Shown here: positions 1,096-34,157 of the stretch, one piece after another
Position numbering within the stretch: the stretch's first letter is position 1
Layout of the letters: each line of letters starts with the position of its first letter
Assembly (NCBI GenBank): GCA_950295325.1
Contig: OX485804.1
Coordinates: 32,734,001-32,798,000, forward strand
From: Polytrichum commune
Lineage: Eukaryota; Streptophyta; Polytrichopsida; Polytrichales; Polytrichaceae
Direction of reading: 5' to 3'
Length of the DNA: 64,000 bases
Notes under the pieces: generated by a model
What the model saw: only the letters and a program-made list of their open reading frames with translations
What the model was told of the DNA's origin: nothing
Databases searched by the model: none
Program-made: the position numbers and the translations under genes

Positions 1096-1125
1096 CATTA
1101 CAACAAAACACATGTCTTTTACAAC
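1096..1125 (+). repeat. CACTA left terminal inverted repeat
   Basis: It starts CATTACAACAAAACAC and continues with TCTTTTA. The canonical CACTA start has decayed to CATTA by a C-to-T change. It pairs with 11542-11571 on the opposite strand. Confidence 0.85.
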
Positions 1126-1299
1126 TGGGTTTTTCAACTTCTACAAGTGAGAAAACCATGACTTTACTGCCGTGGAAAACGACCAGTCGCTTCAGACAAG
1201 CAGTAAAATATGGTCGTAGTCATGTCGGACAAGACATTCCCAATGGACACGTTCCCAATGCCAGTGAAGTTTGGGGTGCTCCGCGTACTTTACCTCATA

Positions 1300-2110
1300 A
1301 AATCATGTCCTACTTCACTACGTCTCGTCAATATAGGTAAGATAACACACACGTCCATATATCTAAGCCTAGTGGACTCATGGCACTGGCACCAGTCATG
1401 TATGGTGTTTGCACTTCACTACACAAAGTCATATCATGTGTAATGCATATACATACATTCCAAATTACTAGTCAACGTTAACAATATGGTGGAAACAAAT
1501 ATGTTTCCACGTGACGAATATTAGTTGAATTAATTTTTCCACAATATTGTTTCCCGTAATCGCGGACAACAATGCGGGAAGTCAATAACGTTACGTAGTA
1601 AGCATCTGTGACTGCTGATAGTAAATAAATACGACAATGACATATACTTTTTATTTCATGTTATGATATGTACTTTACTAAGTGGAGTAATGTTTACATC
1701 AACCAGTGGTTTCTGGCCTACGTTGTGAGGTCATGTGGTTGTCGTATGTCTTTATTATGTATTACTAGTAATGAAGTGTATATGACTTTGCCAAGTGCCA
1801 TGTTTTAAATACAAATGAATGCGTTTATTATAACGAGTAAGATGGGTTCACTTAATATAGTCATATGTTTATGGAATGCACATTATATTTCCAATGGTCA
1901 TACTAGGCAATAATTCTACATCGTAAGCGTCTGTGACTGGTAAGAGTGAATAAATACGAAAATGACATATATTTTTTACTTGATGTCGTGATATTTATTT
2001 TACTATGTAAAGTAATGTAGTGAAGTGTATATGACTTTGTCAAGTGCCATATTTTGAATGCAAATGAATGTGTTTACATGAGGATGATTCAACATAGTCA
2101 TATATTTATG
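1300..2110. repeat. CACTA subterminal repeat region (left)
   Basis: The motif CTTCACTAC or its complement GTAGTGAAG recurs here (about 1312, 1413 and 2015, with a variant near 1768) and again near the right end (about 11342, 11434 and 11527). A longer unit containing AATAAATACGA(C/A)AATGAC occurs near 1625, 1948 and 3320. In En/Spm elements such subterminal repeats bind the TNPA protein; that role here is inferred. Confidence 0.6.
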
Positions 2111-2407
2111 GCATGTTCAATATATTCCCACTTATCATATTAGGATCACTGTGTGGAGTCATATATTTTTTAGTCACTTCACTCTGGTAAAAAATATCTT
2201 TCATTTACGAGATACATTGTAATTCATAATACAGTCATCTACCAAATGCAGTCATACAAACATGGTTATGATGTTCAAAAACCAAATTATATTTATACAA
2301 TAGTATATCAAGGATGTTTTAGAAATCACTACTAACAATGGTAAGCACTGAACTTCATAGAGATAAATGTCTGAAAATTAACAGAGGTCTACAAACCCAC
2401 TCCACAC

Positions 2408-5190
2408 TCACGTAGCCGCACACAACCTTACACAATCACTTGGCCAAAGAATGTAATGGCCTTTTGTTTGGCCAATTGTAGTGACTGGAGGGTCATCTCC
2501 AGTGAGGGGTTTAAGTAGGGGATAATCGTCTTGATATGACTCCGTGATTGTCAACGAAACGTAGGTTTTGCCAATCACCTTTGAGTACAACATCCCACTT
2601 GCTACATTCTGAATAACACCATTTCCAATGAATGTCGCCTTTGAATCCTCATCTTCATAGCCACACAAGTAAACCACATCCCTTGGAGTCTGCACAATTA
2701 CAAAAAGCATATGTTAGTATTAAGAATATATTATTTTAGAGTTGCATGTTTTACAATTATTTCATATTGCACGTTCTATAACATATGCTCACCAATTCAT
2801 TCAAGGGTTGAGTCTTCTTTAAAGCCTTCGTGGCTAGGAGAAGTTTATTACCTCGACGTTTATCCACCAATTCTTTGTCTCCTTCTTTTTTCATTTTCTT
2901 TGAGTTTTTTTTTATAGTGCTACACCTCAATTTCTCTGCAATGTGTATTTAACAATTTTAGCCTTACATTGATTAATGCATTGTAAACTGATGTAGCGAA
3001 GGCACTTCATGTAAGTAAGACTAGACATGGCCGAACGTTTCTGATTTCTTATCAACTGATTCAATATTGGCAAATTCAACCAAATTCAAAGAAAGACTTG
3101 GTTTGAGCGATTGTAGGTTGGACCCTAGTTTTAGAAATTTCTACCCCTACTTCTTCATATGCTTCACTTCCTACATAAATGTACAACTCTTTAAATCCAA
3201 GTCTAATGCCTAAACACTCCAGGGCTTTACAGATACCACAATACTGTTTCTAGTAATCGCGGACAACTATGTGGAAGGCCAATAACTATACGTAGTAAGT
3301 ATCAATGACTGATGGTAGTAAATAAATACGACAATGACCAATATTTCATATTTAATACAACGATACTTCACTATGTTGACTAATGTTTACATAACAATAT
3401 AACTTAGCATAAACATTCGGAATAATGTAGCCCCCCTTCATGAAAATGTTACATTTCTGCGACATTGGTATCGCCTCCAAAGTCAATTTATCGCCTTCAC
3501 TCAGTCGTATTCGTTTGGGTTTATGTTCCCTCTCTATTTTTGCATCCCCTTCGTGCATCTTCACATCATCGTTTGATGATGGCCTTCCAATTGACTGAAT
3601 TGCACCGCTAGAAATATCTTGTACCTATTCATAACAACTTCTATTGACCGCATTAAACACACATATTGAATAAACAAACTCAAACTCCAAACACGATACT
3701 CTGAAATTAGAAAATAATGAATTTGCATGACGTACATATAAGTTGTAAAATCTCATACTTCCCAAATGGATCGCACCAAATTCCATACTTGTTCAGGCTC
3801 CTCATGCCTTGAAGAGGTTTTTTGGGACCCGCAAGGGATCTCTGTGCTCGATACGATGGATTTTTCATATGCACTGCCAAAGTCTAGTAACTTGCTTATA
3901 GGTTCCTTTGATATTCAGCGTGCAAGAGGAGACACATTTCTATGAGAGTTTAACATTTCTTTATTAATATTGGAAAGGTGTTCTCTACGTGAGGGTGCGT
4001 TTGTCATTCTTCCACCGTGATACCAAGCTTGGTCATCACCGCATCTAGCGAGCTTTGCATTGTGTTGAAGTTTTCATCGAAGGCTCTTACCTCTGCCCTC
4101 ACTTCATCAAGTCTTGCATTGCCCGTGCGGCTTATATGCGGAGATATCCCGAATCCGCATTCATATTGAGCATCGCTAACCTCCCTCGACATAGTAAAAA
4201 ACGTTGGGTGACCACCTTTCGAACGTGATGTGTTCTTATCCCTAACAAGTTTCACATCAATATCGTCTTAGCGGGAATCTCTGTTCAATAATAAGGCCTG
4301 CACGCATGTAGCTCGTGAACAAAAAACCTCCGACAAACATATATCCTTGTATACTGTAGTTCAATGAAACAAGAAATAAACGACAACTTATCAACCTAGC
4401 TAGCACCTCCCCCTCGGATCGGCCAAACGTAAATACCTTAACATATTTCCTTACCTCCCGCATAACATTCGCCTGCTCAATCTTCTTCGGGTCGCGAGTA
4501 TGCTCCACCATATTCAACTAGTGATCCAAACGGATAGTCTCCGGTTTTCCCATACCTTTCAGTATGCGCATTTTTATTTGAGCTCTCTTGCTCTTCAACT
4601 GTTGGCCTAGATTGTTTTTAAAGACCTCATACCTTAACACTCTCGGTTCTCGTTTCGAACCACGATATTCCCAGTTCTCCTTCATTCGCGTGTAAATGTT
4701 ATCGAGAGTCGTTTCATGTTGGTCGTTTATGTTGTTAACACTCCAGTCCAGATCGTTAGAGTAGCTGCGCAAGACGTTCAGCCATTGCGGCCTATACACC
4801 CTACTAGGAAATCCCCCCAAAAAAAAACTACTAGTCACAACTCATGTTTAAAACATAAGCACATTAGCTTCAAATGAAAGAAATTATTACGTGATATTTC
4901 AGAGTATTACATGCCTAGGAAATATCTAAGGAATATTATGAATAAAATGGATTGAAAAACGTGTACCGTTTAGGGTCAAGATCCACCACAAATCTTTGTT
5001 TTCCTTCCCTTGCTCTCTCTTCAAATTGTTCCCGGCATGCTTTATTGGTAACCCTCATTTTAGCTTATATTTGCGAGTTATGTGTTGATAGCCTTCGCAT
5101 TGCAACCCATTTTTCGCCGAGTCCATCTTCTTCTTCATCACTACTATGTGCCCTCGCCGAGTGAATGCATGATGTCAATTCCCGTTTCAT
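2408..5190 (-). pseudogene. CACTA second protein, TNPA/Transposase_24-like, broken
   Basis: Coding segments on the minus strand line up in the order expected of the plant Ptta/En/Spm Transposase_24 family. Segment 1 (5190 to about 4961) is acidic then basic, with DSDEEED-like composition and REQFEERAREGKQRF. Segment 2 (about 4806-4455) contains YRPQWLNVLRSYSND and ends in KPETIRLDH, then a TAG (4518-4520) where the family has Trp, then EHTRDPKKIEQANVMRE before a GTAAGG donor. Segment 3 (about 4260-4004) has RDKNTSRSKGGHP and a coiled tail. A basic segment lies at about 3640-3430. The last segment (about 2690-2408) has VASGMLYSKVIGKTY and ILWPSD, like the family's carboxyl end. A second stop lies at 5065-5067. 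Exon borders are approximate. Its role by homology is DNA binding at the transposon ends. Confidence 0.6.
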
Positions 5191-5199
5191 GATTGTGCA

Positions 5200-6058
5200 A
5201 TGTTGGACTTGGAGCTATGGAACTTGAAGGAAAAAGAAGCAGACAAAAAAAAATTGGTAAAGTATTGATGTCTTTGTAGTATATGCGCAGGGGGAAATGT
5301 ATTGTCAAAAGCAACCATACGAAAACATCTCCGTCACTACAAACGAGATCCCACATTTACGAAATCCATATTGGTAAGTGATATATTTGCGTTAATTGAA
5401 TTATATTGTTTTGTAATTGAGACAATTGAATTTTGATTTAATATTGATTTCATTCGTGTAGGCACAAAGACGACATTTTGTTGAGGAGGCAGCTAAGGTG
5501 ATTATTCAATTGTTTTTTAAAGAGACGACAACCCCAAAAGTTTTCCCCCAAAAGAAAAATTACACTAATGAAGAGTTAATATTGATGAATTGGAGGGTTG
5601 AAGCCTTCAATGGGCAGTGGTGTGATGGCCCCATACCAAAGTTTAGTACTTTCAAGTTTCACCAAAGAAATTGGGAAGTGAAAATTTCAAAGTTTTCGTT
5701 CATGGGTTGGGGTTTATTTGCCATGGATTCCGCAAAAGCAGGCGATATTCTTTTACCATTTGTGGGTCCCCAATACACCAAGTCATAATACCGAAAAATA
5801 AAAAGTCTTGTATCCCGCTTCAAAAGTTATGTCCTTCAAGTTGAGGATGATATTTACATAGACGGGAGAGTGGAGAGGGCCAATGTTGCAGGTTTTATTA
5901 ACAACTCCATAGGGCGAGAGGAAATCGGCGATGTAGTGTGGGAGTATAGTATGCTTCCAAAACCTTCGAACAAGAACGAATGGGGTTTTGTTATGACAAT
6001 TGCATCAAGGGATATAGAAGTAGGAGAAGAGTTGTATGCGCATTACTCCGTGAATTAA
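5200..6058 (+). pseudogene. zinc-finger exon joined to a SET methyltransferase domain, inside the CACTA element
   Basis: Exon 1 (5200-5373) encodes an acidic start and CLCSICAGGNVLSKATIRKH, the C-x-C-x2-C...H finger typical of TNP2 amino termini. It ends at a GTAAGT donor in phase 0. Exon 2 begins after TGTAG at 5462 and stays in frame. It encodes SET hallmarks: GWGLFA (5705-5722), FINNS in place of the usual FINHS (5894-5908), and RDIEVGEEL followed by a Tyr three residues on (6008-6046). A natural TAA follows at 6056. Two internal stops interrupt it (TGA 5266-5268, TAA 5786-5788). The Cys after NHS and the post-SET cysteines are absent. SET domains transfer methyl groups from S-adenosylmethionine to lysine; activity here is not implied. 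Whether the finger exon normally splices to SET or to TNP2 is unknown. Confidence 0.75.
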
Positions 6059-6155
6059 ATTCATGTTATTTCCTCAAGATATGTTGCATACTTACTTCAT
6101 TGCCAATTTCAAAATTATGTCTTGCACTAGGATATTATGTCGCAAAGAAAACCAT

Positions 6156-6551
6156 AAGGCAGGTTGTATTGGACAACTTTACTTGAAGTAGTAATTTACA
6201 TTACTTGACATAGTGAACAACAACTGAATGCAGTTGAAAGGGCTAGAAGAGAACATGTGAAAGTAATTTAACCCCCTGGATTCCTCGTAAATGTACAAGG
6301 TTACCAAGAGCAAATGTATTGTTTTCTTATTCTTGATGCACATACATGCATAATACCACAAGGCAGGTTGTATTGGACAACTTACTTGAAGTAGTAATTT
6401 ACATTACTTGTCATAGTGAACAACAACTGAATGCAGTTGAAAGGGCCAGAAGAGAACATGTGAAAAAAATTTAACCCCCTCGATTCCTCGTACATATACA
6501 AGGTTACTAAGAGCAAATGTATTGTTTTTTTATTCCCGATGCACATACAAG
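6156..6551 (+). repeat. 204-bp tandem duplication within the CACTA element
   Basis: Two adjacent copies (6156-6359 and 6360 to about 6551) both start AAGGCAGGTTGTATTGGACA and run about 95% identical. They lie between the SET domain and the first TNP2 exon. They contain no convincing reading frame and are probably intronic or intergenic inside the element. Confidence 0.9.
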
Positions 6552-6705
6552 AGGTGAATAACGACATTTACAGTGCACAAAATGACATATATATGGCGAC
6601 ACAAGAATGAAGCTACATGACGGTAGAAGCAAATAATGATACGGGAACATGATTAGATGGAGACATATTACGAGAAACAAATACAGAAGTGGTGCATGAT
6701 AGCAA

Positions 6706-7391
6706 CACGGGGAGGTCACTTCATTGTCAAGTTGACACCACGTGCGGACAAAGTTTGCTACCCCTATATTACATGCCATATATAATTTTAAAATTTATGA
6801 TATTTTTTCTACATATACATAACCATTGATAGTATCTTTTGTATATTTTTATGAAATTTTTAGTCATCTTTATTTATTTTAGTAATTATTTTAGTTCAAT
6901 TATGTGTCATTCTAGTTAGAAATGGTATGTTTTATGAAAAAACAAATCATCAAATTTAATTACCACTTTTGACTATGTCATAGGTACTGTGTATATCTAC
7001 TCATGAAAAAGAATTGATAAAATTTTGACCCATTTTGGTGGTGCAACTTACCAAAAGAAGATTTTTTTTGGTCGCACGTGGTGTTCAACTTGACAATGGA
7101 GTGACCCCCCCCCCTGCAACCTCCCCCACGTGGGTGCCCATAAGCCCGGACAAGAAACTCCTCCTCCGGAAAAGCCCAACTCCAAAAAGTGCCGCCATGT
7201 AGGCGGCCATGTCATTTTATCATCCATGAGAAAAATTCACCACCATTGTTTTCTTCACCTAGTGTAAACACCCACCGGTCAAGAGTTGCATTTTCGACCA
7301 ATCACAATTGAGAAACGCCCTTTTTTTCATGACCGGTGGACTTCTCCACCGTAGTGTAAACCGGCCCTGACAATGGAGTGATCTACCCGTG
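6706..7391 (+). mobile_element. hAT-type MITE (family Q), copy 1, carrying a nested fragment
   Basis: The element starts CACGGGGAGGTCACTTCATT and ends with the near-complement. It is flanked by an exact 8-bp duplication, GATAGCAA (6698-6705 and 7392-7399). Eight-bp duplications are the hAT signature. It is the inverted counterpart of the 407-bp copy at 61.5 kb, longer by about 279 bp because of the insertion at about 7105-7381. It disrupts the first TNP2 exon: the coding frame resumes exactly across the duplication. Confidence 0.88.
7105..7367 (+). mobile_element. fragment of Harbinger element family P (right end only)
   Basis: After a C10 run, the sequence from about 7145 matches the right-hand 220 bp of the 59.5-60.6 kb element, ending GTGTAAACCGGCCC. 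It is bracketed by a 14-bp direct repeat, TGACAATGGAGTGA (7091-7104 and 7368-7381). That does not fit the 3-bp duplication made by Harbinger transposition, so it may have arrived by repair or template switching. Confidence 0.75.
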
Positions 7392-10300
7392 GATAGCAAT
7401 GAGGAAGTGGAGGTAGTTTGGATGGTCAATGAGTGTTTCAAGAGGTATGATAGTTTGCCCGGATGCGCAAACACCACACCAAACAATGAGGAAATGGAGG
7501 AAGAAGTCCATAGAAAACAAGAAGATGAGGACGAAATGGCCAATCTAGAACCACGTGTACGTGAAGAAGACAATGATGAGAATGCCGAGAGTATGGAGGC
7601 ATTATTGAAAGAAGCTAGTATTCCGCTTTTCAAGGACAGCCCTACCAACCGCTTGCAAGCAACCCTCATGCTCCTTAATATATGCACTATTTTTGGAGTA
7701 CCAAACGCATGTGTCGATGAGTTGTTGAAACCATTGAAACATGATCTACTCCCCAAAGAAAACACTTGCCCTCCATCACATTACGAGGCCAAGAAATTGG
7801 TGAGGAAGTTGGGTTTGAGCTACAACACTATTCATGCGTGCAAGAATGGCCACTGCTTGTTTAGGAATGAACTGAAGGACGCGAAAGAGTGTCCCCAATG
7901 CAAAGAATCCCGGTATGTTCCCAATTCTGATAGCATTCCAGTGAAAATGTTGCGACATTTTCCTCTTATACCTCGGTTGCTCCGAATGTACCGTTGCAAA
8001 CAGTTGGCTGAGCTTATGACATGGCATATCGAGGGGAAAAACAAAGACAACAAAGTAAGATCGATTGTGGATTCAAAGGCATGGAAACACGTGGACGCAA
8101 GGTGGCCGGACTTTGCGAAGGAGCCAAGGAACCTACGTCTGGCACTAGCATTGGATGGTGTCAATCCCTTTTCTAACCAATCTTTAAGTCATTCAATCTA
8201 GCCAGTAGTATTGCTAAACTATAATTTGCCACCATGGTTAGTTACGAAGCGTTTTTTTGTGATGCTAACCCTAATCATTCCCGGCAAAGACAGTGTGAAA
8301 GAGGAAAATATACATGTGTACTTAGCACCACTTATAGAGGAGCTACAAAGGTTGTGGAAAGGGGTGAAGGCAATTGATGGATCAATATTGGAGAAGGCGC
8401 ACTCAAGTGTGGAGAGTAATCATATCACAAACCCAAATTTCAAGCTTCAAGCGATTCTTATGTGGAGCATTTATGACTTTCCGGCCTATGGGTTGCTTGC
8501 CGGGCAAGTTACGAAGGGGTACAGGGGTTGTCTCCCATGTGGGCCACATGTGTCAACGAGGAGGTCCAAGTCTTTGGGGGAAAACGTTTATCTCGGTCAT
8601 CGTCGTTACTTGGCAATGCACCATCCGTACAAACGATTAAAAAGTAGCTTTGATGGAGAAGATGACCGCTGAGGTCCCCTGCGGGTATTGTTTCTACGCG
8701 ATATTTTGTGGTTTGCAAAACAAAGAGAAGATTGGTTGGCAAGATTGACCGGAAATAAAGGAGGAGACAAACTGGATCCAATCCACAAGCATGGAGTGAC
8801 GAGGAAGAACGCACTCTTTGCATTACCATATTGGAAGGTACACCCTAGCGACTCATATTCCCGGTATTATTGACCACATCTTATGGGCCCTACTTGAACA
8901 TCAGAATTTTACGGAGGGTTCAATTTGATTGTGTTACTGTGAAAGTAAATGTCGACCGGGACTATGAGAAATGATGCATGTCTATTAGAAGTAAATGAAC
9001 ATGACTGTTGGAGGTAATTGATCATAACTTTAGGAAGTAATTGAACACATTAGTTGTAGTCATGTTAATACTCCAATACTTATATAAGTAATGGTATGGT
9101 CATATTGGACAACAATTATTGTAACACTTTGCAAAATTTTCTTATATAGTATTTGGCAGGCAATATACTTACCCTGATATTATGTGGACCGACAGGGCCT
9201 TCTTATACGCAATACGTTGGATGTAATGCAATACAAGAAAAACATAGCAGAAAGTCTCATGAAAATCTTATTTGAGGAGAAGGATACACTCAAGGTTCGC
9301 ATAGACTTAAAGGAAGCCAACATACGGCCGCATTTGTGGCCCATACCGGGGAGAAAACCAGGAAACCTGACTTTGCCACAAGCTTCGTATGTGCTCACAA
9401 AGAAAAAGAAGGAGGTATTCGTGGATGTTGTGCGGCAGTTGAAAACTCCAACTCATTATGCTGGCCAATTGCGAAAAATAGTTCACATGGATGGAAGCCT
9501 GAAAGGATTGAAATCCCACGATTACCATGTCCTTGTGCAACAAGTTTTGTCCCTTTGTGTACGCACAATCATGAGAAAAGATGTGCGTATATGTATAATA
9601 AGACTAAGCCGCATATTCAAACGCTTATGCGTTAAAACCATCAATCCATTGAAAATGAGTGAACTAAGAGAGGATACGGCCATCACCTTGTGCATGCTCA
9701 AAAAATAATTTCCATTGACATTTTTTGATGTCATGACGTACCTTTTGGTTGAGGAATTAGATATTTGTGGGCCCGTACATACCCGTTTGATGTATACTAT
9801 GGAAATGTACTTGAAGACATTGAAGGGCTATGTTCGAAATCGCGCAAGACCCGAAGCTAGTATGGCCGAATGATATACTATAGATGAAGCGTTTGGCTTT
9901 TGCACGGAGTACATGCAAACATATATCATTACAAGGCGCAGGGTATGGGATGATAAAGAGGATCCTACAATGAACGACGAAATACTAGAAGGTGTTGGAC
10001 AACCAAAGATACTAACACCCAAGATACGCGATTGGATACATGAATTTGTGGTGAATAATGTGGCTCCATTGGAGTCGTGGAGAAAGTAAGTTACTTCATC
10101 ACTAATGCACAATGTTTTCATATTTGTGAAAAGAGTGTTCACACCCAAAGAATGAAACCATATTTTATATCATGTAAATTGGAAATGAATTTGGTATGTG
10201 ATGAAAAAAACTTCATGTATCACCAATACATGTCACTTATGTATGCTTAGAGATTGTGTACTTTACAAATATGAAAGGCATTACAAAATTGTGTTACTTT

Positions 10301-11192
10301 ACAGGCTCCACACCGCAAGTATAAGACAATACAAATTAGATCGTGAGGAATATCGAAGGAAAAAACGAAATGGCAGGATTGTTTATCCCAAAAATCTCCA
10401 AGATGAGCATTTCCACAATTGGTTCAAGTCAGAGGTCTCACATGCCAAAGCAGCGGGAGAAGAGATTGATGAAGATATGTTGGTTTTGTCTTTTCCACTC
10501 TCTAGCCAAACAACATCTTACGGATCCATATATGCTTTCGGAAACCATATTTGTGTGCATAGTGCATAAGGGACATTGACAACAGTCGACTCTGGCGTGG
10601 CCGCCACCTTCTCCCATAATTGTCGGTCAAGTATACATGCCAAGAACTTGAAGGCAGCAAACTTGGAGTATGTGGGATGAGTGGAGGAAATATTGGCCAT
10701 GGACTATGGTCGATATGAATTGGTTGTGTTGTATTGTAATTGGGTGATGGCAAACATGGTTGGGCACAATGTCACTATGAAGCGAGATAATTGTGGGTTT
10801 GTCATAGTGAATTTTGATAGATTGGTACCATTATTAGCCGAATCTTTCGCATTTTCACTCCATGTTGAACAAGTTTTTTTGCAGATGATTTGAACAATCA
10901 TGGATGAAAGGTGGTTCTACGGAAAGAGCCAAGAGTAGCAAGAGTTGTTTCTAGCAAAGACTCTATGCCGGACATAGGATGCCTATCGATAGGCAACGTT
11001 GAAGAGCATTGTGGATTGGTACCAACATCTTTAGAGAATGATGCAACACCAACTGATCCAATATTGGATAAGGTTGTGGTTTTAAGCAGCGATGAAGTGG
11101 TTGTAGCTTTGAACACAAATGAGCATGAACCATCTTATGAAGATGAAGATGAATTTGGAATTGAAGAAGATGGAAATGCTCAAATAGATTAA

Positions 11193-11571
11193 ATTAAAAT
11201 ATATTGGGTGTGTAGAATTGCCTTACTGTGTATAAATATGTACATTTCATTATTAATTAAAAAAAATGATGGATTTTTTTGTGAGTATTCAGTCTAAACC
11301 CCTAAAACATATGACACTTTGACTTGACAAATCCAAATCGACCACTTCACTATCCACAGTCATACACTAACTATTAGACGTTTCCAAACACGTTTACAAG
11401 TGCGTTCCCAACTGAATTGTTGTCCCACTTCACTACCATGACTCCGCAAAGTTAATTCGGACATGAAATGAACAAAGGTGGATTTTTATAATTCCTCCAA
11501 TCAATGTTTATAGTAGTAAAAGACATGTAGTGAAGTGGGTGTTGGAATAAAAGACGTGTTTTGTTGGAGTG
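11193..11571 (+). repeat. CACTA right subterminal region and terminal inverted repeat
   Basis: This non-coding end follows the TNP2 stop. It holds CACTTCACTA motifs (about 11342 and 11432) and the inverse GTAGTGAAGTG (about 11527). The last 30 bases (11542-11571) are the right terminal inverted repeat, ending GTTTTGTTGGAGTG. Confidence 0.8.
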
Positions 11572-12953
11572 GTGGTCAAAAATCTTATGAGGGTGATCAA
11601 TCACAAGTCGTCACCACAAGAACCCTATATCCATTCACCTTTAAAAATAAAGATCCATCCATGTCAACATTACATGACCCTAGTGAATAGTCAAATGGAC
11701 TTGGTCGACTGTGGATGCCTCAACCTTAAGAGAAGAGGGGCCTTTTTATGCACATTTTTAGCTCCGCACCCACTTCTTGTAGCATACAAAACACGCAAAT
11801 GAGGTGGATGTGTTGCAAGGTAGGAATTGGAGAGTGGCAACCTTAAGGTATTGTCGGACATGAGGCATGATCAAGGGAAAACTTGAGTTTCACATAAAAT
11901 GCTCCTTTTTCTTGCATGTTGGGTTCTTGAGGGTTTACAATTTTATTTTATTTTTATAGTGGAGGCAAGTCAAACATTGTCGCCGTTTTGTTTCCAATTC
12001 TTAGGGACTAAGAGGTTTAAGTGGTGGATATTGAGATTGTGTCCATGACGCCATGTGATTTTGGTGGTGGCATGTTTGTGTTTCAATATAGTGTTGTTTG
12101 TTGAGTTTTCATAGTTATAAACTCATTTGTTTCTTCAAGATTTGTAATTCTCTTGTGATAGTTGGTGGACTAAAGTAGTTGTTGGCACTAAATTCCACAC
12201 GTGCATTTTGTTGTCTTTTGGAAATTTTAAGAGACATGATTTTTTCTAAAATATATAATATTGGTAAATAAAAATAGTATAATATACTCATCCTTGGGCA
12301 TCCCCACATAAAAAGATGAAATTTGGAAAAGGCATGATTGAGTGATCCCAAATATTACCTTCAATAAAAGAACAAAATTCTTCCCAAAAATACCCTTTTC
12401 TCGCATGTGGGCCCATCAATCGACACTAGGTGCATCTTATGTGCATTATGTGCATTGATGATAAATAGTGTGGGTCACACTAAATCATACGTAGTTTGTA
12501 GCTTTGATCTTATCCTTCAATGGACATTTCTATTTAAGGTATGTGAAATCTTGAAGTTAAATTGGCTAGTTTTATAAGAGGGGGCTATAATGGACACATT
12601 TAGCTTTGCACACATTTCTCCTATGAAATTAAGTTTGTGAACAATTGCAAGAAATCTAGCAAATCCATATTCAATTGGCACCCATTGTCCTGACAATTTT
12701 CAATGTTTACTTCAATACCTCGTGCGTTACCAAAAACACATATTCTCTTTCTTCTTACATGGTCATATAGATCCCCTCAAATATAATGTTGACTACTTAA
12801 CCTAAAAAAAGTTTAAAAATATATATATTGATCCCACGTGGACATGTGTTTGTTCATAGACGCACCTAACTGCACACACTCACATGTAGGTGTCCGTAAA
12901 AATGTGTAATTGAATAAGGCTTGCTTACCTTAATATAAAGGACCGCAACTTTA
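11572..12953. other. intergenic, no gene recognised
   Basis: This is AT-rich sequence with only short chance reading frames. GCTTTGCACACATTT-like phrases near 11760 and 12600, echoed near 17220, suggest an old diverged repeat that I could not delimit. Confidence 0.5.
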
Positions 12954-22966: not shown

Positions 22967-25376
22967 TTAATCCAGTTGTTTCGCTGTGGGGTTGTGCTTC
23001 CGATGGATTCGAATAATCTGCCATCTCATTACAGAGTCGGTGAAAGTGCTGATAAGTCTCAAGGGTAGGCTAAAAAAAGCTTCAAACAAATTTCGGAGGA
23101 AGGATTCAGCAGGTGCAAAACCGCGTGTAAGAGTGACACAGATCGGGCCCAGGCCAGGTGTGGTGGTTATCAAGAACGTTCCCGACTTTATCCCGGCAAG
23201 TATAATTCGTGCGACCGTTTGTGGTGATTGAGCGATGTCTCTGTTGTAGAATGAGGCAAATTGCATTCCTGTTGTTACCTCCTCGTTGCTGCAAGCTGGT
23301 CATGCACATCCAAAGGTCCGTGGGTAAGTACCGCAACTTAAAACGGTTAGTTACATCAGTGCGAAGTAGTACGAGTAGCCCGAAGTAGAGGATGAATAAA
23401 CGCAACAATATTCCCAATTTCACCAGCAATTCCTTACCGTCATCCAAGAGCGCACTCTCCACAAAGCCTGGACACACCAGATTGACACGGATGTTGTAAG
23501 GCGCAAGCTCCAATCGCAAACACTCTGCAATGCCCTTAATGGCGTATTTTGTGCTCGTGTACATTCCATTTCCATACAACCAGCACTGCATCAAATCAAC
23601 AATGGTTACGGTCAAATGTGACACTCGTAACTTGCTCATTTCTGGAGTCTCGACTAATCGCTTGCATTATTGCACGAACCATGTCCACGAAGCCAATTAT
23701 TATTCAGATTACAACCATCCCAGTACTAATTGCAAGGTTATTGAGGATTAATGTTAACAGTATGCAATTGTTGCCAATTATCCCACCTCCTTTACGTATA
23801 AGCAAATGCAAACATTCGCTGCATGTACAAGTTCTGACGATACATGCCCTTATCTCAAGGTTCTGATTCTTCGACTGAAAGCGAGTACTCCTACCTAAGA
23901 TAGGTGTAAGATAGTTGATACTTACCAAGGACGCGAGGCTTCCAATGAAGACGATTGATATGGGATGGCTACGACTGCGCATTTTGAGGTCAGCAAGTGC
24001 GGCATGCAAGGGGTATAGCGAGCCCAGCAAGTTGGTTTGCACAACTGCATTCATGTCTTCCACAGAAACCTCCTCCATAAAGCCGCTCCTGGTTATCCCG
24101 GCATTGTTTATAAGTATGTCGATAGGTCTCCAATCGTAGGACTCCCTGACCGCTGTCGATATAGCTTTGTAATTTCCCACATCTGCTGCCTATATCACAC
24201 AACAGCACCGGGAGATTATTAACTTACACGTTATGGCGGCCTTCAAAAGCCAAAATGCGACAATTTATGCACATAATCTAGACAGAACATCTCTTTGCCC
24301 TGATCAGTACAACTCCTTGGAACCATCGAGACAGGCTACATGAGTTTTGCGCGCGCAACAGATCAGGGAAGACATGATTGCGATTGAAATTTGCCTTATA
24401 AAATCAAAGGCTACTCCGAGTCTGGACGTTATTACAGGAATGGATTCTGCTTAATAAAGATCGATTGCATTGTACGAAGGAGCCTTCAGTAATTATCTTG
24501 CTCATCGCGAACTTTACATGAAGGCTGAAACGGACCGTGTCCTCATGTTGCTCTCATGTAGAAAATAGAGACTAGGCAAAATGCTTGTCAGATAAAGACA
24601 ACTGGCTTGTTCAGTTCGATACAAAGGACTAACAAGCAAGATATGTATTATCATCTGTAAGCTACAGACCGCGGCAATTTACGGATGTAGCTTGTAGGTT
24701 CATGTTGGCATCTTCAAAATTGTATGCAAGACTCAGTCTCTTCACGTAGGGCTCAAGCAATAGCTACTACAGAGATGGGAGGCCCTTACAAGCATCTCAG
24801 GAACATGATGAACAAAGAGAGCTACTAACAAATTTTTTGACGATGCTGGACTTCTCAAATCTGGCATTTCTGAACCACAAGACTTGCATTCCTTGTAGTT
24901 AAACCTTCCGCCAGAAACATAGAACAATTCAGCTCAGATACTACTTTCTCACATAACTGCTCGTCCAGCAAAGATATGCAAATCGACTAAACTTTAGGAA
25001 GCGAGATTTTGTGCGTTGCGAGCTACATTACCGTCGTGACATCAAGCCTCGAGAATTATCTCCTTTTAAGGATCTTAAAACTAAATGGAGGTATACTCGT
25101 AAACCATACCTTCACAAGAATACGCTCTGCGGGGCATTGAAGCTCCTTCAGTAGAGACTTCGCAGCCTTCTCCAATTTGTCACGATTTCTTGCTAGAAGA
25201 GTGATGAAAGCACCTTCTTGGAGCATCTCTTTGGCAACTGCCAACCCTATGCCACTCGAGGCACCTGTTAGGAACACATGCTTTCCTCGTACACTTGGAA
25301 TAAATGGTTTCCTCCTCCATACGATTGAAATCAGTACGAGAATGCCAACAGCAATTCCGGCGATACGAAGATCCAT
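22967..25376 (-). CDS. 3-ketodihydrosphingosine reductase-like short-chain dehydrogenase (KDSR/TSC10)
   Basis: By homology it reduces 3-ketodihydrosphingosine to dihydrosphingosine with NADPH at the ER membrane, the second step of sphingoid-base synthesis. Four exons on the minus strand: 25376-25110, 24189-23926, 23585-23438 and 23295-22967, all with GT-AG borders, giving about 335 aa, close to the family's usual 320-335. Residues 5-20 are a membrane anchor (IAGIAVGILVLISIVW). TGASSGIG (about 37-44) binds the dinucleotide, LLARNRDKLE favours NADPH, INNAG follows, then GSLASL, then the catalytic YxxxK as YTSTK. The carboxyl part, with SPQTVARIILAGIKSGTF and a hydrophobic stretch, resembles KDSR ends. 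The last exon's acceptor was chosen because it alone keeps the frame. The segment NIRVNLVCPGFVES is more like generic SDRs, so another membrane SDR is possible. No stops: apparently functional. Confidence 0.85.
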
Positions 25377-33186: not shown

Positions 33187-34157
33187 CTATGGGGCCCCTA
33201 GTATACATAGCATGTTAGGTCTTAGCATGGCCATGCATGTGCATGTGTTGGGGAGGCATGTGCATTGTATTAACCATTATGGGATTGTGATGATGATTGT
33301 GTTGGTTGCAGGGATTTACTAAAGTATAGCACATTGTGTGTTTGTTGGATTGGAGTGTGTGGGCTATTTGGTGTATTGGTTGAATTGGGCTTTTATGTAT
33401 GGGTGGGTGCAAGTGGAGAGTAGGTGTGGCCATTTGTCAACTTCATGGTTTGGGCGAAGTGTACAATTGGGGTTGGGATATGTTAGTGGCCAAAAGATGT
33501 ACTTTTGGTGGTTTCCCATGTATTGGGCGTATCATAATTTTAAGGTTTGTGTAATTTGTGCATCAAATATGCCCGAGGCTTTCCAGAAGTGGTTTGAGAG
33601 TTTTTGATTGATTTACTCGTTATACACCAATTTTGTCGACGTATGTGAATTTGGATTTTGCAATTCATAGTTCTTGTTTGCGGTCGTATTAGTTTATGTA
33701 TGTTTGTAGGTTACAAATTTCTTTGCGGTGTTCGTTTGTTGGGATTCCTTTGAGCCAATAAGGCATGGTGTGTGTGATGTGCATGTGGGGTGTGGGGATT
33801 GGTTTGTTGCAAGTGGCTTCTTCGTTTGCTAGTTGGTCTGCAATTTCATTTCCTAAAATTCCAGTGTGTGCTTTAACTTTTTGTATTGTTATGTTGTGTT
33901 TGGTCCATAGAATTTGGTGGACTATGGGTGAGCTAAGTAGTTTATCAAGGTAGTTGTGTTGGGATGAGGGGTGGTGGATGTGATTGTTAATGAGATATAT
34001 GCTATTGAGGTTGTTAGTGAATATGTGTGTATTTTGTTGTTGGTCTTTTGTGGCAATGAGGGCAATGAGTAGAGAGTAGATTTTCACGCGTAGTGTGTTT
34101 GGTCTTACGGACAACTTTCCGATGTGATATATTTCATCAAGTTCTCTCTTCAACTAA

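Follow-up and report, generated by a model that had tools for sequence, protein, structure and literature searches.

A SET-domain exon kept by several CACTA (En/Spm) transposon lineages of Polytrichum commune

SET histone methyltransferase genes are known as cargo of DNA transposons in Phytophthora, where they were taken up by HarbingerS and MuDR elements (PMC12730594, citing Kojima and Jurka 2014). The Polytrichum commune elements described here are like them in this cargo, but they belong to the CACTA/EnSpm superfamily, with tnp2, DUF4218 and DUF4216, whereas HarbingerS and MuDR have transposases of other superfamilies and reside in an oomycete; the Polytrichum transposase is of the tnp2/Transposase_21 type and not of the Harbinger type. 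In Polytrichum, SET is further read as an exon that lies within the first intron of the transposase gene, whose finger it borrows; the comparison with HarbingerS and MuDR covers cargo, transposase and host. The initial annotation of this DNA had named SETMAR as the closest parallel. SETMAR also links a SET domain to a transposase-derived DNA-binding part; nevertheless, it is a host gene in anthropoid primates (PMC8616336) and its transposase is of the mariner kind, in contrast to a multicopy mobile element with CACTA ends and tnp2, so that the Phytophthora transposons are nearer.

Canonical CACTA/En-Spm elements, which encode TNP2 and a TNPA-type gene, have in common with the Polytrichum elements the ends, the 3-bp duplication, tnp2, DUF4218, DUF4216 and a conserved reverse-strand open reading frame (ORF), and differ in that the added SET exon occurs only in the latter. 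Extra domains have been recorded in angiosperm CACTA elements, namely Peptidase_C48 and Transposase_24, and Orbi_VP1, SANT and ribosomal_S8e-like domains are mentioned as well; the terms “SET domain” and “methyltransferase” are absent from the main text of that source (PMC8978399). A term search of PMC4158355, on CACTA exon structure, gave no match, and no CACTA/EnSpm element with a SET gene was found in the result listings and opening abstract lines of the open-access literature searched, which does not include Repbase Reports. A transposon-borne modifying enzyme of another kind is the TET/JBP dioxygenase of DNA transposons in fungi, EnSpm elements among them, for which a role against silencing has been proposed (PMC12730594); it differs from SET in being an enzyme that acts on DNA. 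SET-carrying DNA transposons are already known, and what appears new here, within the literature searched, is the CACTA superfamily, the nested gene layout and the long retention under selection.

The window analysed is a stretch of 64,000 nucleotides (contig C2, positions 32734001-32798000) of a nuclear genome of 408 Mb with seven contigs of 42-78 Mb. It holds a CACTA element spanning 1096-11571, the ends of which form a 23-nt inverted pair of 78% complementarity with the 3 bp gtg on either side. The features of the element are collected in Table 1.

Table 1. Features of the CACTA element in the window (positions are those of the window)
Feature	Position	Strand	Remarks
Left terminal inverted repeat	1096..1118	+	decayed, CATTACAAC...; inverted pair, with gtg at 1093-1095
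Conserved reverse-strand ORF, second element gene	2408..2713	-	similar ORF in copy L101 (by eye)
Finger exon remnant (CxC..C...H)	5200..5373 (left limit approximate)	+	homologues in other copies
SET exon	5462..6058	+	198 codons and a closing stop; interrupted once in frame, by TAA at 5786-5788
SET domain proper	5705..6046	+	PF00856, 36.1 bits, E 9.6e-9, profile 1-104 of 105
Approximate counterpart of clade-A TNP2 phase-0 acceptor (CACATACAG/GAGGTCAAC, the stroke marking the splice point)	6540..6565	+	decayed; by eye
tnp2 transposase domain (Transposase_21)	8046..8666	+	PF02992, 53.3 and 136.8 bits on two halves
DUF4218 part of TNP2 gene	9709..9924	+	PF13960, 69.9 bits (stops searched as X)
Right terminal inverted repeat	11549..11571	-	reverse complement CACTCCAAC...; inverted pair, with gtg at 11572-11574

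The inverted ends, the gtg flanks and a SET match above the Pfam cut-off of 22.4 bits confirm the initial annotation in placing a SET domain inside a CACTA element, between finger and transposase. The splice sites that it proposed were likewise recovered: the finger exon, which has homologues in copies L009, L028 and L048 and in the SET-less L109, L113 and L114, ends at a phase-0 donor, GTAAGT, at 5374, and after an intron of 88 bp the SET exon opens in phase at 5462, behind ..GTAG. Stops interrupt all three coding parts, with a TGA at 5266-5268 immediately 5' of the first Cys codon of the finger, the TAA in the SET exon and a TAG at 8199-8201 in tnp2. The window copy is therefore dead, a pseudogene of a SET-bearing CACTA element, and function has to be judged from other copies. 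The SET frame itself closes at 6056-6058, three residues past the final Tyr, and thus does not continue into TNP2 in the window. The reverse-strand ORF gave no match in a Pfam search and is putatively TNPA-like by its position.

We also note further features of the window. A MITE-like inverted-repeat insertion at 6709-7111, whose arms of 27 and 18 nt adjoin each other and are 93% and 89% complementary, lies between the SET and tnp2 parts and widens their spacing in the window copy; just 3' of the SET exon, at 6148-6549, there is a head-to-tail duplication with a spacing of 203 bp, 93% alike. Two adh_short (short-chain dehydrogenase) frames on the minus strand at 23106-24189 are probable host gene exons, and an RNase H frame at 33689-34153 on the same strand (PF00075, 34.8 bits) is probably of retrotransposon origin.

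Searched by tblastn with the SET exon, the genome gave 205 candidate places, 150 of which were scored; these merged into 135 loci, many of them fragments, and a Pfam SET search returned 119 matches, host genes included. Sorted by eye, the tblastn matches comprise group A, with 24 near full-length copies at 75-100% identity (19 without stops), group B, with 36 copies at 53-63% identity (21 without stops), and a more distant group C at roughly 41-51%. Sixty SET copies, mostly picked among open ones, were fetched and with the window make 61. In 57 of these, no stop interrupts the frame between the last stop upstream and the final one (eight of the 57 have fewer than 196 codons); the remaining four have one internal stop each. 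Because the SET exon recurs genome-wide, often as an open frame, it is not a chance ORF, a candidate rejected by this recurrence and by the selection described below.

The association with the transposase is directional. A SET match lies 0.9-2.6 kb upstream on the same strand for 73 of the 150 best of 643 tnp2 candidates. Neither control gave a case: within 8 kb of these 150, no listed SET match lay downstream on that strand, and none lay on the other strand. Seen from the SET side, among the tnp2 matches listed, tnp2 stands at most 4 kb downstream of at least 18 of the 24 A copies and at least 27 of the 36 B copies. The other 77 of the 150 are without SET among the SET matches listed, although some may still have one. 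The 13 best-scoring tnp2 matches of the genome likewise have no SET among the matches listed, and the tnp2 loci L081-L086 and L091 are SET-less CACTA relatives that form a natural control group.

The ends of the elements were located by pattern. The clade-A end CACTACAACAAAACACRTCTTTTAC, with up to 3 mismatches, occurs 144 + 117 times and the clade-B end CACTACAACAGATTGGGTATTTTGTG 60 + 59 times, with 0 occurrences of the reversed-pattern control for either. Based on the 100 places listed per terminus kind, correctly facing ends stand on both sides within 30 kb of at least 21 of 36 B copies and at least 4 of 24 A copies, and at least one end was found for at least 33 of 36 and at least 18 of 24, respectively; random placement gives means of 0.04 (both sides) and 0.28 (at least one end) for B, and 0.01 and 0.20 for A. 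Among these listed ends, B ends occur at 0 A copies and an A end at 1 of 36 B copies, as chance allows. The ends are 14-17.2 kb apart in 18 of the 21 two-ended B copies. Target site duplications of 3 bp were observed in L101 (AAG) and in three of four clade-B elements checked (TCC, CTC and TGT), while the flanks of the fourth, at C7:27133613, differ (CGG versus TAA). These duplications, the inverted CACTA termini and the presence of tnp2 (PF02992) with DUF4218 and DUF4216, which L101 matches at 132 and 33 bits, are the features of a CACTA/EnSpm element. Over 7.9 kb that include the SET exon, two clade-B elements from different chromosomes are 98.4% alike, and the likeness stops at the CACTA end; this family has therefore moved fairly recently. 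Paired ends of clade-C1 and clade-C2 elements were not found in 10-kb stretches.

Two side observations concern these termini. In two of the four two-ended clade-A copies the end upstream of the finger is CACTACTAC and the downstream end is CACTACAAC; in the third copy the upstream end is CACTACAGC, in the fourth both ends are CACTACTAC, and by eye the two clade-A termini may differ by rule. Five pairs of clade-B ends are only 6-7.5 kb apart (C3:45035958-45043158, C3:48730502-48737563, C4:12776107-12783570, C6:39029013-39036030 and C2:17528421-17534561, the coordinates being those of contigs), have no SET or tnp2 inside among the matches listed, and are probably non-autonomous derivatives.

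The ratio dN/dS (omega, by Nei-Gojobori) was compared between SET and TNP2 of the same elements. Three deep clade-A pairs have SET omega of 0.14 (0.08-0.23), 0.17 and 0.13, at dS near 0.7, and TNP2 omega of 0.13, 0.12 and 0.20. In the two clade-C2 pairs compared, omega is 0.24 and 0.23 for SET and 0.12 and 0.11 for TNP2, which makes SET about half as constrained. Younger A and B pairs show SET values of 0.28, 0.57, 0.30 and 0.46 and TNP2 values of 0.30, 0.19, 0.16 and 0.10, with 0.46 against 0.10 in L021-L028, and the two clade-C1 pairs have SET values of 1.53 and 0.48, with wide intervals, and TNP2 values of 0.52 and 0.59. SET is under purifying selection, with a strength like that of TNP2 in deep clade-A pairs and mostly weaker than TNP2 elsewhere. 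The SET exon is a long-kept part of several CACTA (En/Spm) lineages in the nuclear genome of Polytrichum commune.

A one-off capture of a functionless host SET fragment had been put forward as the alternative. CACTA elements do take up host gene fragments (PMC8978399, main text), but for this family the idea is refuted and hardly credible in view of 135 merged loci, four transposase groups and a SET omega of 0.13-0.24 at dS 0.46-0.76 in the deep A and C2 pairs together; the splice phases and the SET stop have also been kept. When six host SET stretches (L115-L120), taken unassembled although most host SET genes are intron-split, were compared with the element profile as candidate donors, four matched and the best reached 13.7 bits; element copies scored 265-338 bits on this profile, into which they had themselves gone. 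A look for SET relatives in viral contigs gave 52 pattern matches, none of which was confirmed.

Synonymous sites are largely saturated between A, B and C, with protein identity remaining at 42-58%. The SET and TNP2 distances of 20 elements are correlated with r 0.95 (0 of 2000 permutations); such a correlation is expected from shared descent alone, and it counts as evidence that swapping has not been frequent, not as evidence of function. In a tnp2 tree of 41 rows with a midpoint root, the SET-bearing elements form four groups (A, B, C1 and C2), all to one side of a branch that has support 88/91, and more distant SET-less elements lie outside that side. C1 is placed within a clade of 12 rows (support 96/93), the other nine of which are SET-less. 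The single SET-less rows L089, L090 and L099 stand among SET-bearing rows; a SET remnant is present in L112, the stretch upstream of L090, while L111, the 4 kb upstream of L089, has no SET, and the stretches upstream of four other SET-less rows (L109, L110, L113 and L114) have none at E 1. This distribution is compatible with a single old gain of SET followed by loss once or twice, or with a later transfer to C1. The initial annotation had reckoned copies without SET as evidence against its reading. Such copies do exist, close relatives of C1 among the 77 noted above, and yet SET is present in four transposase groups, with an omega of 0.13-0.17 in clade A, so that they count against that reading only in part.

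The finger exon, which closes with a phase-0 donor, codes for a Met and some 66 residues bearing CPC..C...........H. The SET exon is without a Met near its start, opens in phase 0 at an acceptor 88-117 bp past the finger donor in copies having both sites, and has its own stop. A strict script joined finger to SET in 41 of the 61 copies, six by a less sure fallback acceptor and the window being among the 20 unjoined, and 40 of the 41 joined frames are open. Counted from 90 residues past GWGL onward, the first stop of all 61 copies comes 1-8 residues after the last conserved Tyr, and a continuous SET-TNP2 protein, as implied by the initial annotation, is rejected for the copies read. PolyA-like signals were seen within 600 bp after the SET stop in three of five elements, an uninformative proportion. 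A phase-0 CAG acceptor precedes the TNP2 exon of A (GAGGTCAAC), B (GACGAGTAC) and C2 (GGACC..) elements; in 14 further stretches the script found this acceptor in nine, one of them a doubtful C1 site, and missed it in five, in one of which (L132) the ORF opens just past the acceptor.

The distance from the finger donor to the TNP2 acceptor is 941-1233 bp in four SET-bearing elements, with the SET exon inside. In the SET-less L109 and L113, which have the same finger exon, a candidate TNP2 acceptor follows it after 203 and 199 bp; in the SET-less L114, finger and TNP2 share one open frame. The longer interval with SET against the short one without it points to SET as an extra terminal exon nested in tnp2 intron 1, and because the SET frame closes with a stop of its own, an alternative terminal exon within that intron is the best reading. 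Finger-SET could instead be a separate short gene, TNP2 having its own start and promoter, as would be allowed by the Met that TNP2 ORFs conserve (VIRM, VLRM, LHRM) beyond the acceptor. We consider two such genes unlikely, given that the SET-less L109 and L113 keep the finger so near the candidate TNP2 acceptor, that L114 has both in one ORF and that the phase-0 CAG acceptor is kept at the TNP2 exon of A, B and C2 elements wherever the script found one.

The GxG motif, the asparagine of the FIN/NHSC motif and the C-terminal Tyr have known roles in SET domains, and NHSC is typical of Set1/ASH1-type enzymes. Of 19 aligned element copies, 18 have a PF00856 match with an E of 0.01 or less; all 19 share GWGL and the asparagine of the FIN motif, and the final Tyr is nearly invariant. 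The nearest solved structures by sequence are the SET domains of Set1/MLL, ASH1L and NSD2, with EZH2 lower in the lists; these matches are weak (best E 2e-5) and mostly end at the FIN motif. The full NHSC and the Cys-rich post-SET of Set1/ASH1-type enzymes are not seen, as the NHSC position reads NSSI, NNSI, NSSA or NSFI, with His replaced by Ser or Asn, and the frame stops so soon after the final Tyr. A single-sequence fold of the window SET exon alone gave a mean pLDDT of 35, too low to be used. The altered NHSC and the missing post-SET Cys cluster leave methyltransferase activity of the finger-SET protein likely but not assured.

The same two departures would be expected if the SET domain were inactive and the finger-SET protein had been selected as a binding or regulatory partner, such as a TNPA-like cofactor, a brake on transposition via the shared finger or a decoy for host chromatin factors; a finger in common with the transposase would suit competition. 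This is the less probable course, though one to be taken seriously. The invariance of GWGL and of the FIN asparagine and the near invariance of the final Tyr in the 19 copies stand against it, as does the precedent of PRDM-type SET domains, which are without NHSC and some of which are nevertheless active; one of the 19 members also matches Pfam PRDM2_PR, at E 0.009.

We favor the reading, with a probability of about 0.6, in which the SET exon is nested, finger-SET and finger-TNP2 are alternative products, and self-targeted lysine methylation keeps the chromatin of the element open. In this mechanism, alternative splicing or termination would yield either a finger-SET protein of about 264 aa or the finger-TNP2 transposase, and the phase-0 sites together with the SET stop suggest that the two products have one N-terminal finger in common. 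The finger might then take the SET protein to the DNA or the partner of the transposase, that is, to the element's own ends or copies, although this step is the weaker one. There, SET would methylate a lysine, most plausibly in the manner of Set1/ASH1/NSD enzymes (H3K4 or H3K36), and the methylation could keep the element chromatin open against silencing or couple expression to transposition. Since the finger is common to SET and transposase, self-targeting is the most economical role, and an opening mark against silencing is the most likely purpose of SET. SET-less relatives are abundant, and SET is therefore not required for transposition as such.

The targeting logic would be identical if SET were a repressive writer, laying a silencing mark on the element or on host chromatin and thereby damping the activity of the element or the harm done by it, and such restraint could be selectable in a multicopy family. 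This we regard as improbable, as the nearest relatives by sequence are Set1, ASH1L and NSD2 and not SUV39 types, and as escape would be the simpler benefit for a selfish element, even though EZH2, further down the lists, leaves a repressive kind some likelihood. The preferred reading, in which SET writes an opening mark, has a counterpart in the anti-silencing proteins of Arabidopsis VANDAL elements, for which a self-encoded, sequence-targeted relief of silencing is likewise proposed; VANDAL elements differ in being MuDR elements. Their anti-silencing protein is named VANC and is not known to be a SET protein.

Plants silence transposons via chromatin marks, and few plant elements are known to counter this silencing, the VANDAL system being the usual example. 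We tentatively propose that a CACTA lineage in Polytrichum may have made its transposase gene a two-way switch, in which a single promoter and a single DNA-binding finger would give rise to the transposase or else, via the nested terminal exon, to a self-targeted histone methyltransferase that opens or marks the copies of the element. If such a switch holds true, it would be a transposon-encoded, sequence-addressed chromatin writer whose address is common to the transposase. The nested, long-selected SET exon provides a direct test of whether an element writes its own chromatin state, for which the SET-less relatives in the same genome serve as natural controls.
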